Positions 4,998 to 61,133 of a DNA stretch of 64,000 nucleotides are shown here, piece after piece (within the stretch, counting starts at the first letter, position 1; each line of letters begins with the position of its first letter). The notes under the pieces are model-generated. The model saw nothing but the letters and a program-made list of their open reading frames with translations, searched no databases and was not told the origin of the DNA. Both the position numbers and the translations under genes were made by a program. Source of the stretch: an uncultured Alphaproteobacteria bacterium (GTDB lineage: Bacteria > Pseudomonadota > Alphaproteobacteria > Rs-D84 > CACZYB01); the NCBI GenBank assembly GCA_944392955.1, contig CALXYK010000016.1, forward strand, positions 1 to 64,000, written 5' to 3'.

Positions 4998-5201
4998 ATG
5001 ACAAAAGGTACAGTAAAGTGGTTCAATGCCAAAAAAGGTTACGGATTTATTCAACCAGACGAAGAAGGTGCAGGTGATGTTTTTGTTCACATAAGTGCAG
5101 TTAAAACAGCCGGTATATTTTTAAACGAAGGCACAAGACTTGAATTTGATATAATAAATAACAAAGGTAAAGATGCAGCCGAAAATTTGAAACAAATCTA
5201 A
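4998..5201 (+). CDS. CspA-family cold-shock protein
   Basis: Single cold-shock domain of 67 residues that binds single-stranded RNA/DNA and acts as an RNA chaperone in the cytoplasm. The hallmark start TKGTVKWFN, the RNP1 motif KGYGFI and the RNP2 motif VFVHI are all present. An in-frame ATG 12 bases upstream would add MRIL. The downstream ATG is chosen because GAGG lies at proper spacing in front of it and the family begins there. Closely followed by a terminator, so monocistronic. Which paralogue this is cannot be told. Confidence 0.93.
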
Positions 5202-7408: not shown

Positions 7409-8048
7409 CTATTTTAATAACTTTTCACAATCTTCCTTTAACCTATAGTAATTCCAACAAATGTCAATATTTTTTCCTTTCCATTCAAGTTTAATTGTAA
7501 GTTTTACAAAATTTCTAGAATTTCTATAATTATTTATTATGTCTTTTTAATTCAAACAAAGTCATGCTCCATATATTGGCACTATTTTTATATTCATCTT
7601 CATAAAACTTCACTTTTTGTATAGATACCTCATTATGTTCTTTCATATATTCAATATCTAGATATGCATCTACTTCTGTTGTAAGTTCATAATCCACCAT
7701 ACCCCATTGAATAATTCCTTTTTGCGTCCATTTCTGAATAATTTTATATAGTAGATTATCAAACCATGTATATTGATTATTTTTTACTTTGTATATTATA
7801 TTGTTATAACCTTCAGATTCTATTCCATAACAATAATTGAACATTTCATTATCTAGCACTCCTCTTTTGGTCCATTTATTTCTACAATAACTATCAAAGT
7901 CTTTCTTTGCTTCAATTTGTGTTTTAAGAATATTAACTTTGCTAGAGACACTACTACTAGACTGTTTTTGAACATATCTAGATTTTTTTTGAATATATAT
8001 GCAAATAGCAATTAGAAAATAAAATATTACAAATTTAATGATTTTCAT
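7409..8048 (-). pseudogene. membrane-anchored protein of unknown function, frameshifted near its 3' end
   Basis: The uninterrupted frame (7530-8048, about 172 residues) has an N-terminal hydrophobic anchor (IIKFVIFYFLIAICIYI) and a soluble part with two similar segments built on W-T-(K/Q)-(K/R)-G (NKWTKRGVLDNEM and QKWTQKGIIQWGM). The frame stops after FELKRHNK. One base further on, at a run of five A (7544-7548), another frame continues for about 45 codons with coding-like content (KLTIKLEWKG, then NYYRLKEDCEKLL) and ends at 7409, just before the terminator. I infer a one-base frameshift in the A run, either decay or slippage. The start at 8048 is preferred over an upstream ATG because AGG lies before it. 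Last gene of the leftward operon. Confidence 0.55.
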
Positions 8049-8068
8049 TTTTATGCCTATCATTCTAT

Positions 8069-8770
8069 TTAAAAATCGTGTCCTATTCGAGTTAATTTTC
8101 CATCAGGAGAAAAATATCGTACATTATCACCATCAAATAAAACTCCATTTTTAAAATAACCTATAATTCTAATATTCCCATTAGGCCAATAGTTTCGATA
8201 TTCTCCATCAGCCATACCATTCTTAACATTATAAACATACTTAAGATAATTTTTTCTAAAATTAAGTTCTGGATATCGTTGTTCATCAAGTTGTCTCAAA
8301 TAAAGTTCTCCACTAGGATTAGGAAGGTCTTGAATAAAATCTTCCGAATAAACTTTTACAATACCTGTTATTGGTTTACCCTTATGTTTACAAATAAGAG
8401 GTTGATACCTTAATCCAAATCCTGTGCATTCAGCTGTTTTGCCACGAAGATATACTTTTTCAGAAAATAAAGTATAATATCCAATAAAAATACAAATAGG
8501 AATTAAAATTATTTTCTTACTTTTATATTTCTTACAAACAGAAATAACTTTTGATGAATATTCTTTATACATTTCATTCTTATTTAATTGTTCATTTATT
8601 GAAGATAAACAATTTTTAGTTTGAGATTTTATCTTATTTATTTGTTTATTTTTTGATAATTTTTCTTTTACATCGGATATTTGTTTATTTACGTCTTTAT
8701 TATCATAAATAACTATCCATATTATAAATAATACTATTGCAACGATTGCTATAATCAAATATTGTTCCAT
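8069..8770 (-). CDS. membrane protein with C-terminal MORN-like repeats
   Basis: Protein of 233 residues. An N-terminal membrane segment (IIAIVAIVLFIIWIVI) is followed by a Lys/Asn-rich coiled region (about 25-80) and a second hydrophobic segment (IILIPICIFIGYYTLF). The C-terminal half contains two or three MORN/YwqK-like units of the form G-x-Y-x-x-Y-x-x-x-G (NGMADGEYRNYWPNGN, then GDNVRYFSPDGK). Such repeats occur in bacterial surface or toxin-associated proteins, but the role here is unknown. It sits in the island operon, 15 bases after the coiled-coil protein gene. Confidence 0.7.
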   Translation of the reverse strand: MEQYLIIAIVAIVLFIIWIVIYDNKDVNKQISDVKEKLSKNKQINKIKSQTKNCLSSINEQLNKNEMYKEYSSKVISVCKKYKSKKIILIPICIFIGYYTLFSEKVYLRGKTAECTGFGLRYQPLICKHKGKPITGIVKVYSEDFIQDLPNPSGELYLRQLDEQRYPELNFRKNYLKYVYNVKNGMADGEYRNYWPNGNIRIIGYFKNGVLFDGDNVRYFSPDGKLTRIGHDF

Positions 8771-8785
8771 TTTTTAATCCTTTCA

Positions 8786-9733
8786 TTAAAATCCATTTAA
8801 AGTTTCAGCACATAAAGTAAGCCAACTATTATCATCAAGAATCTGCTCCATTCTATCAGGATTTTCATAAGTAAGCTTTACAGATTCTCTCATAAATATA
8901 TAAGCTTCAGCTCCATGAGAATAAGTACTTTCTATCATTTTATATGCAATATTAATAGGAGTTCCATTTCTTCTATGTCCAACTATAACGTTCATTATAG
9001 TAGCAAAATTAGAACATATTCTTCCTCCCATTGTATTTAGAAGTTCACTCTTCTTTTGCTCTTGTTCTCTAATTTTTCTATATTCTTCAGGATGTTCCGC
9101 TATCCATTTTTTTTCTGCTTCATTAATTTGACGTTGTCTTTCTTCTGCTTCTTTTTGTTTTTTCACAACATCTTGTTTTTCTTTACTTATATCTTGAACA
9201 AAGTCATTTATAAGTTTTGAAGATTTTTTTAATTTGTCATCTAATTCCGATATCTGCATATCTTTTACTTCATTGTCAGATATAATATCCTCAAATTCTT
9301 TTATAGCATAATCGGCTTTTTCTATAAGATTCTGTCTCTTAGTACTTGTTGTATATCTATCATATCCCAATTTATTCAAATCAGATATAGCATCATCAAA
9401 TTTTTTATTTAATTTTTCAACTTCAGATATATATTTCAAATATACTTTAAAATTTTCTTTTAGATTTGAATAAAACTTTAAATAATATTCTTTATTTCCA
9501 ATTAAACCTTTTTCTTCTTTCTGATAATTTAAATATTTTTGAATATATTTTCTTATATCTGAATAAGATTTTCCCATATTTAAATAATCTTGATATGTTT
9601 CAAAATCAACATAAAAAAAATCTATCCCTGAGATAAGTTCATATTGTTCTTTATCTTCTTCTAATGTTCTTGCAAAAACGCTATTAATATTTGTTAAACA
9701 AAAACTAAATATTAATAAAAAAATTTTTAACAT
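8786..9733 (-). CDS. secreted coiled-coil protein of unknown function
   Basis: 315 residues with a signal peptide (LKIFLLIFSFCLTNINSVFA, cleaved near residue 21), so probably periplasmic. The middle (about 90-240) is strongly helical and charged, with a coiled coil rich in Lys, Glu and Gln. The C-terminal 80 residues are more compact and carry two cysteines (RICSNF and TLCAETL) that could form a disulfide. Its start overlaps the stop of the preceding lipoprotein gene by 7 bases, suggesting translational coupling. I recognise no family. Confidence 0.75.
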   Translation of the reverse strand: MLKIFLLIFSFCLTNINSVFARTLEEDKEQYELISGIDFFYVDFETYQDYLNMGKSYSDIRKYIQKYLNYQKEEKGLIGNKEYYLKFYSNLKENFKVYLKYISEVEKLNKKFDDAISDLNKLGYDRYTTSTKRQNLIEKADYAIKEFEDIISDNEVKDMQISELDDKLKKSSKLINDFVQDISKEKQDVVKKQKEAEERQRQINEAEKKWIAEHPEEYRKIREQEQKKSELLNTMGGRICSNFATIMNVIVGHRRNGTPINIAYKMIESTYSHGAEAYIFMRESVKLTYENPDRMEQILDDNSWLTLCAETLNGF

Positions 9734-10371
9734 ATTTTCTCTGCCTCCCTTACAATTCTTCTAACTGAAAAATCTTTTTTCCATTTATCTAAAACTTCTT
9801 CATCATTTACATTATTCATAAGATATATAAGTTTATCTAAATCTTCATTTGACACATTCCTAATTATATAATTTGTCTGGCAAATACATTTAAAATTTCC
9901 CCCACAGGCAGGAATAAAAGCTGATTTCATTTCTTTTCTAAATTCATCGTAATCAACGGGCTTTTCTTCTTTTTTAGGACTATTTGGATTAAAACATTTT
10001 TCTTCAGCTTTTTCAGCTATAGCTTTTATAGATGGTCTTTTCCAGAAATTATTAAATTCAGGAGTTTCATTTTTATCGATGGCATTTTGGAATATAAGAG
10101 CAATTTCTTTCAAATCTGTTTCTGTTAATTTTTTTGAAAGATAATTTGTTTTACATGTACAATCTATATCATCACAAGATTTTAGCATTACATCTCTAAA
10201 CAATTCTCTAATTTCTTCAGCAGAAGCTTCTTGTAAATTTATTTTTTGTTCATTAGATTCTGTTTCTGTTATACTATTAATACCATTTAAACCTTTATCA
10301 ACAATATCCTTCAATTGAACACATGCAGCAAAACTGAATACCATTGGAATTATAAATAATTTTTTATTCAT
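9727..10371 (-). CDS. lipoprotein with a duplicated four-cysteine domain
   Basis: 214 residues. The signal sequence ends in the lipobox FAAC (Cys17). The mature part consists of two similar ~70-residue domains, each with the order FR-x(2)-M, then a Cys, a C-x-C pair before a TNY triplet, and a final Cys after KAEE/REAE. Compare CTCKTNYLSK with CICQTNYIIR, and KAEEKC with REAEKIC. Four cysteines per repeat suggest two disulfides each in the periplasm. Function unknown. It is the second gene of the leftward operon and is translationally coupled to the next one. Confidence 0.75.
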   Translation of the reverse strand: MNKKLFIIPMVFSFAACVQLKDIVDKGLNGINSITETESNEQKINLQEASAEEIRELFRDVMLKSCDDIDCTCKTNYLSKKLTETDLKEIALIFQNAIDKNETPEFNNFWKRPSIKAIAEKAEEKCFNPNSPKKEEKPVDYDEFRKEMKSAFIPACGGNFKCICQTNYIIRNVSNEDLDKLIYLMNNVNDEEVLDKWKKDFSVRRIVREAEKIC

Positions 10372-10817: not shown

Positions 10818-10886
10818 TGTTCCTCCTTTTTCATATTAAAATTCTCTATCAATCCAGTTGATTTTTGCGATTTTTAATATACAAAA

Positions 10887-11015
10887 ACCACCGTTTGTGT
10901 AGAGAGTAGTTTGGAAAGTCTTAAAAGTGCCTAGAAACCTAGGTTTGGATTTTATTCCTTGACATTTATTCCATATTGGAATAATTTAAAATTACTATAA
11001 CAAATAGACGGTGGT
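10887..11015. repeat. short inverted repeats flanking the promoter region next to the invertase
   Basis: ACCACCGT at 10887-10894 is the reverse complement of ACGGTGGT at 11008-11015. The similarity extends weakly outward and inward (10 of 12 bases, plus a TTGT/ACAA match offset by three bases). The 113 bases between hold a strong rightward promoter. An invertase gene begins 88 bases to the right and a leftward operon begins 69 bases to the left. I infer that this may be an invertible promoter segment, but the repeats are short and not perfect. Confidence 0.4.
10959..10987 (+). promoter_or_regulatory. strong promoter with an operator palindrome in its spacer
   Basis: Consensus TTGACA (10959-10964), 17 bases, then TAATTT (10982-10987). 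The spacer is almost filled by a palindrome with 8-base arms, TTATTCCA (10966-10973) and TGGAATAA (10977-10984). A repressor dimer bound there would block RNA polymerase. The promoter points at the invertase gene, with a leader of about 110 bases. A second palindrome, AAACCTAGGTTT (10935-10946), lies just upstream and could be another regulator site. Confidence 0.7.
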
Positions 11016-11103
11016 CTAGTTGTCATATCTATTTTTCATAGCAAAACATGGCTAAAATCTGGTAGTTCTTATAGTTGTAAAAACAACAAATAGGAGCTTA
11101 AAA

Positions 11104-13789: not shown

Positions 13790-14842
13790 TTAGTTCCTTT
13801 CATTTTGTTTAAGTAGTGTAAAATTTAAAGTTGTACCTTCGTTATATCCTGCAACTGAATATATTAAAAAGTCAGGATAACTTTTTTTCTCTGCACAAAG
13901 GTTATCAAGAATATTAAAATCAATCTGTTTGTTTTTTTTAATTATATCCCTTGTAACTCCGGTTTCAGTAGTAAGTATGGTTTGTATTCCTGCCTGATTT
14001 CCACCACGAATATCAGTATCCATATTATCCCCAATAATGGCAATACGACTTTTATCTATACTTATGCCATTTAAATCAAGAATTTTAAATATATAATCAA
14101 ATGCATTTTTGTGTGGTTTTCCAATTTCAACAACTTCTCCTCCAAGATTTTTATAATACTGGACAAGAGCACCTTGGGTTAAACCATATTTTGTTGATTG
14201 ATTTGTAATATCATTTTTAATAGTTCCTACATCAGGATTTGCATTAAATCCAGGAAGATTAAGTTTTTTTACTTTTTCAAACTCACCTTTAAAAATCTCA
14301 GGAGTTGTTATGGAGTATTGTTTTTTTAATCCATCATTACTTACTTTTGATAGAAAAAATTTACCACTGAATTCTGGGGAAAGAGTTGTTGTTTCTTGCT
14401 CAGTTAATTGAGGAACTCCAAAATAGAAAAAATCCGCCTCCTCAATATTTTCAACAGAATTATATATTGTATTTTTAAATAATTTATCGTTTTTCATTCC
14501 TATTGTATAATAGTTTATAGGATGAGAATTAGTTTTGAATTTTAATTTACCATTTAACAAAAAATCACGTGCAATTTCCCCAGAAGTAATAGCCTTATCA
14601 TAATGAATTCCTTTAATAATACCTTTTTTAGCATAATTATTTTCAAATTCATCACTAAGTTGTGTTCCATTTGATAAAATATAGATAATTTTACCTGCCT
14701 TCCTTAAAGTTTCCATAGTTTCAGGTATATTTTTATATATTTGTTTACCACTCCAAATAACTCCATAAACATCAAAGACAAAGACATCAAAATTATTCAT
14801 TATGTCTTTGATATTTCTAAAAATTAAATGGTCCATATACAT
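13790..14842 (-). CDS. HAD-superfamily class IIA hydrolase (TIGR01459-like)
   Basis: 350 residues. Motif I is FDVYGVIWSG. The residue two after the nucleophile is Tyr instead of Asp, as is usual for the HAD-IIA subgroup with DVWGV, often seen in alphaproteobacteria. Motif II is YILSNGTQ, motif III GKPHKNAFDY, motif IV IGDNMDTDIRGG, and a C2-type cap lies between. Relatives are NagD and nitrophenyl- or pyridoxal-phosphate phosphatases. Substrate unknown. It is the first gene of a two-gene unit with the kinase and is preceded by its own promoter. A kinase and a phosphatase side by side suggest activation followed by removal of a phosphate in a small pathway. Confidence 0.85.
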   Translation of the reverse strand: MYMDHLIFRNIKDIMNNFDVFVFDVYGVIWSGKQIYKNIPETMETLRKAGKIIYILSNGTQLSDEFENNYAKKGIIKGIHYDKAITSGEIARDFLLNGKLKFKTNSHPINYYTIGMKNDKLFKNTIYNSVENIEEADFFYFGVPQLTEQETTTLSPEFSGKFFLSKVSNDGLKKQYSITTPEIFKGEFEKVKKLNLPGFNANPDVGTIKNDITNQSTKYGLTQGALVQYYKNLGGEVVEIGKPHKNAFDYIFKILDLNGISIDKSRIAIIGDNMDTDIRGGNQAGIQTILTTETGVTRDIIKKNKQIDFNILDNLCAEKKSYPDFLIYSVAGYNEGTTLNFTLLKQNERN

Positions 14843-60999: not shown

Positions 61000-61133
61000 A
61001 AAAACCTCACTGTTTACAACTAACTTCCAATAAATCAAAGACAAATTCACGATTCTATCAAATACACGTGAAAAGCCAACGATTCGCAAATTTACCAAAA
61101 CTTCCACAAAACATAGGAAAACCTAGGTTTTAA

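Follow-up and report, generated by a model that had tools for sequence, protein, structure and literature searches.

The window analysed here is a 64 kb stretch of G000, a small gut alphaproteobacterial genome of 915,102 bases (~0.9 Mb). A leftward run of five genes (10817 to 7530) and a rightward serine recombinase gene lie on either side of its intergenic region 10818-11103 (Table 1). A sequence-only reading had proposed that a near-consensus promoter lies here between short inverted repeats, and that its inversion would redirect transcription from an Mpi-like invertase to a divergent operon of exported proteins. The inverted repeats, the invertase and the divergent operon were all found at the positions given by that reading, with ACCACCGT at 10887-10894 on the forward strand and its inverted copy at 11008-11015.

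Table 1. Features of the candidate switch in the window, and degenerate invertase paralogues at homologous loci (locus names precede the coordinates).
Feature	Coordinates	Strand	Remarks
Putative exported or membrane protein	7530-8063	-	Last of the tight leftward run
Membrane protein with MORN_2 repeat	8069-8770	-	Domain match
Putative exported coiled-coil protein	8786-9733	-	Signal peptide by eye
Putative lipoprotein	9727-10371	-	FSFAAC lipobox by eye
First gene of leftward run, 142 aa	10389-10817	-	Weak PD-(D/E)XK resemblance, E-value 0.03, below cut-off
Left 26-bp crossover site	10878-10903	+	tatacaaaaacc-AC-cgtttgtgtaga; core ACCACCGT at 10887-10894
Probable invertible segment	10890-11012		Central dinucleotide to central dinucleotide, from site anatomy; homologous segment inverted in L037 versus L041
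Promoter inside segment	10959-10987	+	-35 TTGACA; -10 AATAAT (15-bp spacer) or TAATTT (17-bp spacer); now faces invertase
Palindrome TTATTCCatattGGAATAA	10966-10984		Overlaps promoter; possible operator, judged from sequence
Right 26-bp crossover site	10999-11024	-	Read on the minus strand, gacaactagacc-AC-cgtctatttgtt; core at 11008-11015
Predicted 5'-UTR hairpin	11064-11098	+	Pairs AGGAG ribosome-binding site of invertase
Mpi-like serine invertase, 195 aa	11104-11691	+	Catalytic residues intact
Dead Mpi paralogues	L057:4163-4750; L043:4143-4736; L046:4141-4734; L051:4153-4737; L040:4157-4678	-	Leaders of glycan operons

As proposed, the gene starting on the right encodes a serine invertase that is Mpi-like by sequence. 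Its product matched the Pfam Resolvase domain (E-value of 9.8 × 10−32), with HTH_7 slightly under the cut-off, and the NCBIfam model NF009949 ('master DNA invertase Mpi family') with an E-value of 8.9 × 10−81 and 270.4 bits, where the cut-off is 272. When frame neighbours were included in the genome search, the NF009949 score was 271.8 or 272.1 bits at this same cut-off. A paralogue in the same genome (L002) scored 275.2 bits, and homologues at L037 and L058 scored 273.4 and 294.1 bits. An alignment showed that Ser9, Arg7 (in the RVS motif) and the SRLGR arginines are intact, and the enzyme has the catalytic Ser and Arg residues and the Resolvase domain plus HTH that characterise serine DNA invertases. 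Among solved structures, DNA invertases (PDB 4m6f, 3uj3) and resolvases are closest to it in sequence. A scan of viral contigs found no relatives of the invertase.

The genes on the left form a tightly packed run, of which the later members look exported or membrane-bound; the description as an exported-protein operon does not extend to the first gene, which has no obvious signal peptide. A leftward operon common to the window and the same-genus loci L003 and L004 was considered and rejected, as there was just weak similarity in the MORN region (E-value of 2 × 10−5 in a single comparison) and wider BLASTp searches gave nothing.

To call the promoter near-consensus is an overstatement. Its -35 element (10959-10964) is perfect, but the -10 element is poor, with TAATTT matching three of six positions, and a consensus promoter scan did not list it. 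With E. coli sigma-70 weights it scored 8.3; the median for shuffled sequences was 7.0, and their 95th percentile 9.5. Though moderate, it is the top-scoring site on both strands of the intergenic region. The leftward operon has no comparable promoter of its own, as the earlier reading had stated. Inverting the segment in silico turns this site into the best leftward one. Relatives have stronger promoters in the same place, including TTGACT-17-TATAAT in L003 (12.1), TTGACA-17-TATAAT in L058 (13.3) and the promoter of L002 (10.4). Downstream, the predicted hairpin in the invertase leader could hold invertase levels low by pairing with the ribosome-binding site. The statistics are modest, with a folding z-score of -2.2 for the 107-nt leader of the window and of -3.0 and -1.3 for similar hairpins in L040 and L041.

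Aligning 22 loci revealed two 26-bp imperfect dyad sites (12 + 2 + 12), with the 8-bp repeats as their cores. The repeats had been called short, and only the 8-bp cores do match well, but each core belongs to such a dyad; the repeats seem short because the two sites resemble each other chiefly in their cores. The window sites agree at 14/26 positions, core included, compared to 15/26 in L003 and about 19-23/26 in the best loci. ACCACCGT occurs twice in the window, both times here (0.32 occurrences expected by chance; two were reached in 5/100 shuffles), and also exactly twice in the 915-kb genome, inverted and beside the invertase. Further ACCACCGT-flanked promoters, for which a genome search had been suggested, did not turn up: the exact core lies nowhere beyond the local pair, and therefore the switch appears local, although degenerate distant sites are possible. 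Judged by this exact-core search, the invertase is Mpi-like in sequence and gives no sign of a 'master' role on many distant promoters.

The repeats recur next to homologous invertases and are conserved there: L003 and L004 have an identical 8-bp core, and elsewhere the cores have co-diverged. The left outer half-site plus core, the 17-mer TATACAAAAACCACCGT, is identical in L003/L004, as is the right outer half-site, and the three loci also share almost the entire right flank, whereas the interior of the segment has diverged. Conserved outer half-sites and cores around a diverged interior argue that the sites are under selection. The possibility that the window segment is inverted relative to L003 was rejected, because the two interiors line up without inversion (score 13 versus 0 inverted; 95th percentile of shuffled sequences 8.5).

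Inverted pairs are a recurrent feature of this family. Perfect arms of at least 11 bp were found upstream of the invertase in 20/70 distinct homologues, compared to 0.75 in dinucleotide shuffles, and arms of at least 13 bp in 14/70 loci, compared to 0.15. In all 22 aligned loci the core-to-core distance is 107-143 bp, and the pair lies at the same distance from the invertase. The 8-bp core is equal in both sites of nearly every aligned locus and differs between loci; similarly, the central dinucleotide is equal in both arms of every aligned locus and varies among loci (AC, GA, AA, TA). A core and dinucleotide that are common within a pair but not between loci are expected for site-specific strand exchange, and not for simple binding. 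This speaks against reading the repeats as operators, where a regulator or the invertase itself would bind them to control two divergent promoters without any inversion. Dyads in a divergent intergenic region could act in this way, a separate palindrome overlaps the promoter, and the window arms are poorly matched outside the core. Still, we consider operators very unlikely, given the pattern within pairs and the physical inversion of homologous segments between co-linear flanks, described below for L037/L041 and for a second clade.

The pairs are not found everywhere. Many homologous loci (e.g. L005, L006, L011, L012 and L089-L097) lack such repeats, so flipping a local promoter is one role of these enzymes and need not be their sole one. 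Where the searched type does occur, there was one inverted pair per genome in L037, L041 and L060. A search of 11 family and 201 order genomes for paired sites of the ACCACCGTCTA and CACCGTYTA types returned G003 and G005 only, which makes the CACCGT type a rare one in the order of the window.

The sequence-only reading had named reversed segments in related genomes as a check, and these were found. The two outcomes that would have spoken against it, no inverted form anywhere and repeats unconserved beside homologous invertases, were both contradicted by the genomes compared. Between L037 and L041, the segment is identical at 136/138 positions after reverse-complementing and at 93/153 when compared directly, while the flanks are co-linear (431/472 on the left, 590/675 in the right flank plus gene). 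The promoter inside it, TTGCAA-18-TATAAT, points toward the invertase in L037 and toward a lipoprotein operon in L041. In a second clade with core ACCTAGGT, the segments of L018 and L027 run in the opposite direction to those of L015 and L009, and also to that of L014, which is of the ACCAAGGT type. An exact pair was present in 0/17 other genomes of the genus of G201, where additional orientation pairs were sought. As in invertons, inverted sites thus flank an intergenic promoter in the window (moderate here, and strong in L003, L002 and L058), and both orientations occur among homologous loci.

The L037/L041 inversion also largely refutes the notion that the repeats arose by chance or are relic ends of a recombinase-carrying mobile element, to which we give next to no credence. 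Some serine recombinases do move elements, and L037 and L041 have a near-identical segment, yet G202 is absent among the 18 genomes listed for the genus of G201. However, the repeats frame the promoter only and leave the recombinase gene outside, and their position and spacing are constant across loci. We also observed that the L037/L041 segment is 98.6% identical while the flanks are about 87-91% identical, in genomes that may belong to different genera. Horizontal exchange or a strong constraint on the segment are possible explanations for its conservation.

We conclude that the window locus is a dedicated phase-variation switch of one segment, with a probability of roughly 0.8; inversion is observed for homologous segments, and the window copy, in a gut alphaproteobacterium, very probably also inverts its ~120-bp promoter segment and so toggles a surface-protein operon. 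The invertase would bind the two dyad sites framing this segment, cut at the central AC dinucleotide, exchange strands and invert the DNA between. In the assembled orientation the promoter would read rightward into the invertase; once flipped, it should read leftward into the five-gene surface/exported operon, so that one promoter would serve the two alternately. Inversion would join TATACAAAAACCACCGT to CTATTTGTTATAG, with a reciprocal junction at the other end. The leader hairpin may damp invertase synthesis. As a flip takes the promoter away from the invertase, the ON state could be self-stabilising.

Some observations sit uneasily with a dedicated switch. In most assembled loci of the window type the promoter faces the invertase, which is unexpected for a switch whose first flip shuts off its own invertase, unless little invertase is made or being ON carries a cost. 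The window sites agree at barely more than half of their positions, a worse match than in most relatives, and the -10 element is weak. These last two features would also fit a decayed switch that was once invertible and is now locked facing the invertase, with diverged arms and a weakened promoter. In the related genome G005 (L004/L033), an in-frame TAG after residue 183 truncates the HTH of the invertase, and that switch may be locked. In the window, however, the invertase retains an open frame and its catalytic residues, and the diverged interior lies between conserved cores and outer half-sites, so we regard decay as unlikely. Separately, many contigs (L028, L034, L036, L039, L044, L050 and L053) stop either no more than ~240 bp ahead of the invertase start or shortly after the gene has begun, which is what assemblers breaking at a mixed-orientation segment would produce.

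The operons facing homologous switches encode exported proteins or lipoproteins, include a YadA-type adhesin gene, or are glycan operons with a catalytically dead Mpi paralogue as their first gene. In L009, L010, L013-L015, L018, L027 and L059, the product of the left gene is a large exported protein, which in L059 ends in a YadA anchor (E-value of 2.5 × 10−9). Inspection of the sequences in this clade placed a -35 element (TTGACT/TTGATT) just inside the left site and a -10 element (TATACT/TACCAT) outside it. A promoter split across the left site in this way would be assembled in one orientation only. These same loci have a separate fixed invertase promoter, and a terminator-like hairpin precedes the ATG.

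In L035, L040, L043, L046, L047, L051 and L057, the left operon consists mainly of glycan-biosynthesis genes, as judged by inspection. These operons start with a degenerate Mpi paralogue, recognised by NF009949 in five of them (E-values of 1 × 10−17 to 1 × 10−30; Table 1) and by inspection in L035 and L047. All five aligned paralogues have lost both SRLGR arginines and retain the HTH. L043, L046 and L051 lack the active-site Ser, L057 keeps it, and in L040 it is missing along with the N-terminus. Such a paralogue could conceivably bind the sites without cutting them, as a latch or a regulator. More broadly, we tentatively propose that the Mpi-type lineage of gut alphaproteobacteria may comprise self-contained surface switches whose promoter is shared by invertase and operon, with the glycan versions latched ON by a site-binding dead copy. 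The dead leader gene suggests a testable latch, which, if true, would make this a switch with its latch built in.

The likeness to Mpi of Bacteroides fragilis lies in sequence (NF009949, with the window enzyme about at the cut-off and its paralogue L002 above it) and in surface-structure operons preceded by short invertible promoter segments. In addition, the core of L025/L058, ACGAACGT, equals the eight bases that end a PSA primer (PMC10939037). Mpi of B. fragilis inverts 13 regions genome-wide (PMC4747536), whereas the core in the window occurs at one local pair, in an alphaproteobacterial host with a ~0.9-Mb genome, and the promoter would alternate between operon and invertase. We found no consensus for Mpi repeats in the open literature. 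Like Hin, Gin and Cin, the window enzyme is a small serine recombinase with a C-terminal HTH, and its 26-bp dyad sites are centred on 2 bp. In the left site, the outer half TATACAAAAACC appears to resemble hix half-sites. Unlike in those systems, the invertase gene lies outside the inverted segment, and the hin segment is far longer than the ~120 bp found here. Local inversion of an intergenic promoter alone, next to the recombinase gene, is also known from fimS/FimBE and from B. fragilis Tsr19/BF2766, but those enzymes are tyrosine recombinases with different sites and chemistry. The enzyme is thus Mpi-like by sequence, and its apparent mode of operation is more like that of an inverton served by a local recombinase.

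Bacteroidota, clostridia and enterobacteria provide well-described cases of promoter inversion. For this alphaproteobacterial group we found no description in the openly accessible literature. A 2018 read-based survey found inversions in 0/4 alphaproteobacteria tested (PMC5903667). The finding is real and well supported: the locus is very probably an invertible promoter switch whose general kind is known, whose lineage is new and whose dedicated layout is distinctive. This family indicates that gut alphaproteobacteria with small genomes, represented here mostly by metagenome-assembled genomes, use an Mpi-type switch to vary their surface proteins, surface glycans and a YadA-type adhesin. With two 26-bp sites, one enzyme of ~195 residues and ~120 bp of DNA, the design is simple enough for tests in a laboratory strain.

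The same genome holds a second switch on contig 13 (L002), whose invertase is 73% identical to that in the window. Its site pair, AAACGGAGGT/ACCTCCGTTT, frames a TTGACT-17-TAAAAT promoter, and to the left lies the start of a divergent gene for a cysteine-rich exported protein, as seen by inspection. The central dinucleotides (AC in the window, GA in L002) and the cores differ, so cross-reaction of the two systems would be unlikely. Another sequence, AAACCTAGGTTT, is the site core of a different clade and occurs in only two places in the genome, at 10935-10946 inside the segment and at 61119-61130 beside a tRNA-like sequence. It has no pairing partner and was treated as unexplained or due to chance. 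Finally, L064 contains a 42-residue invertase remnant (5001-5126) that is 98% identical and lies near a HAD-type gene like that at 13790-14842 of the window, which suggests a decayed copy of the window locus in a deer-gut relative.
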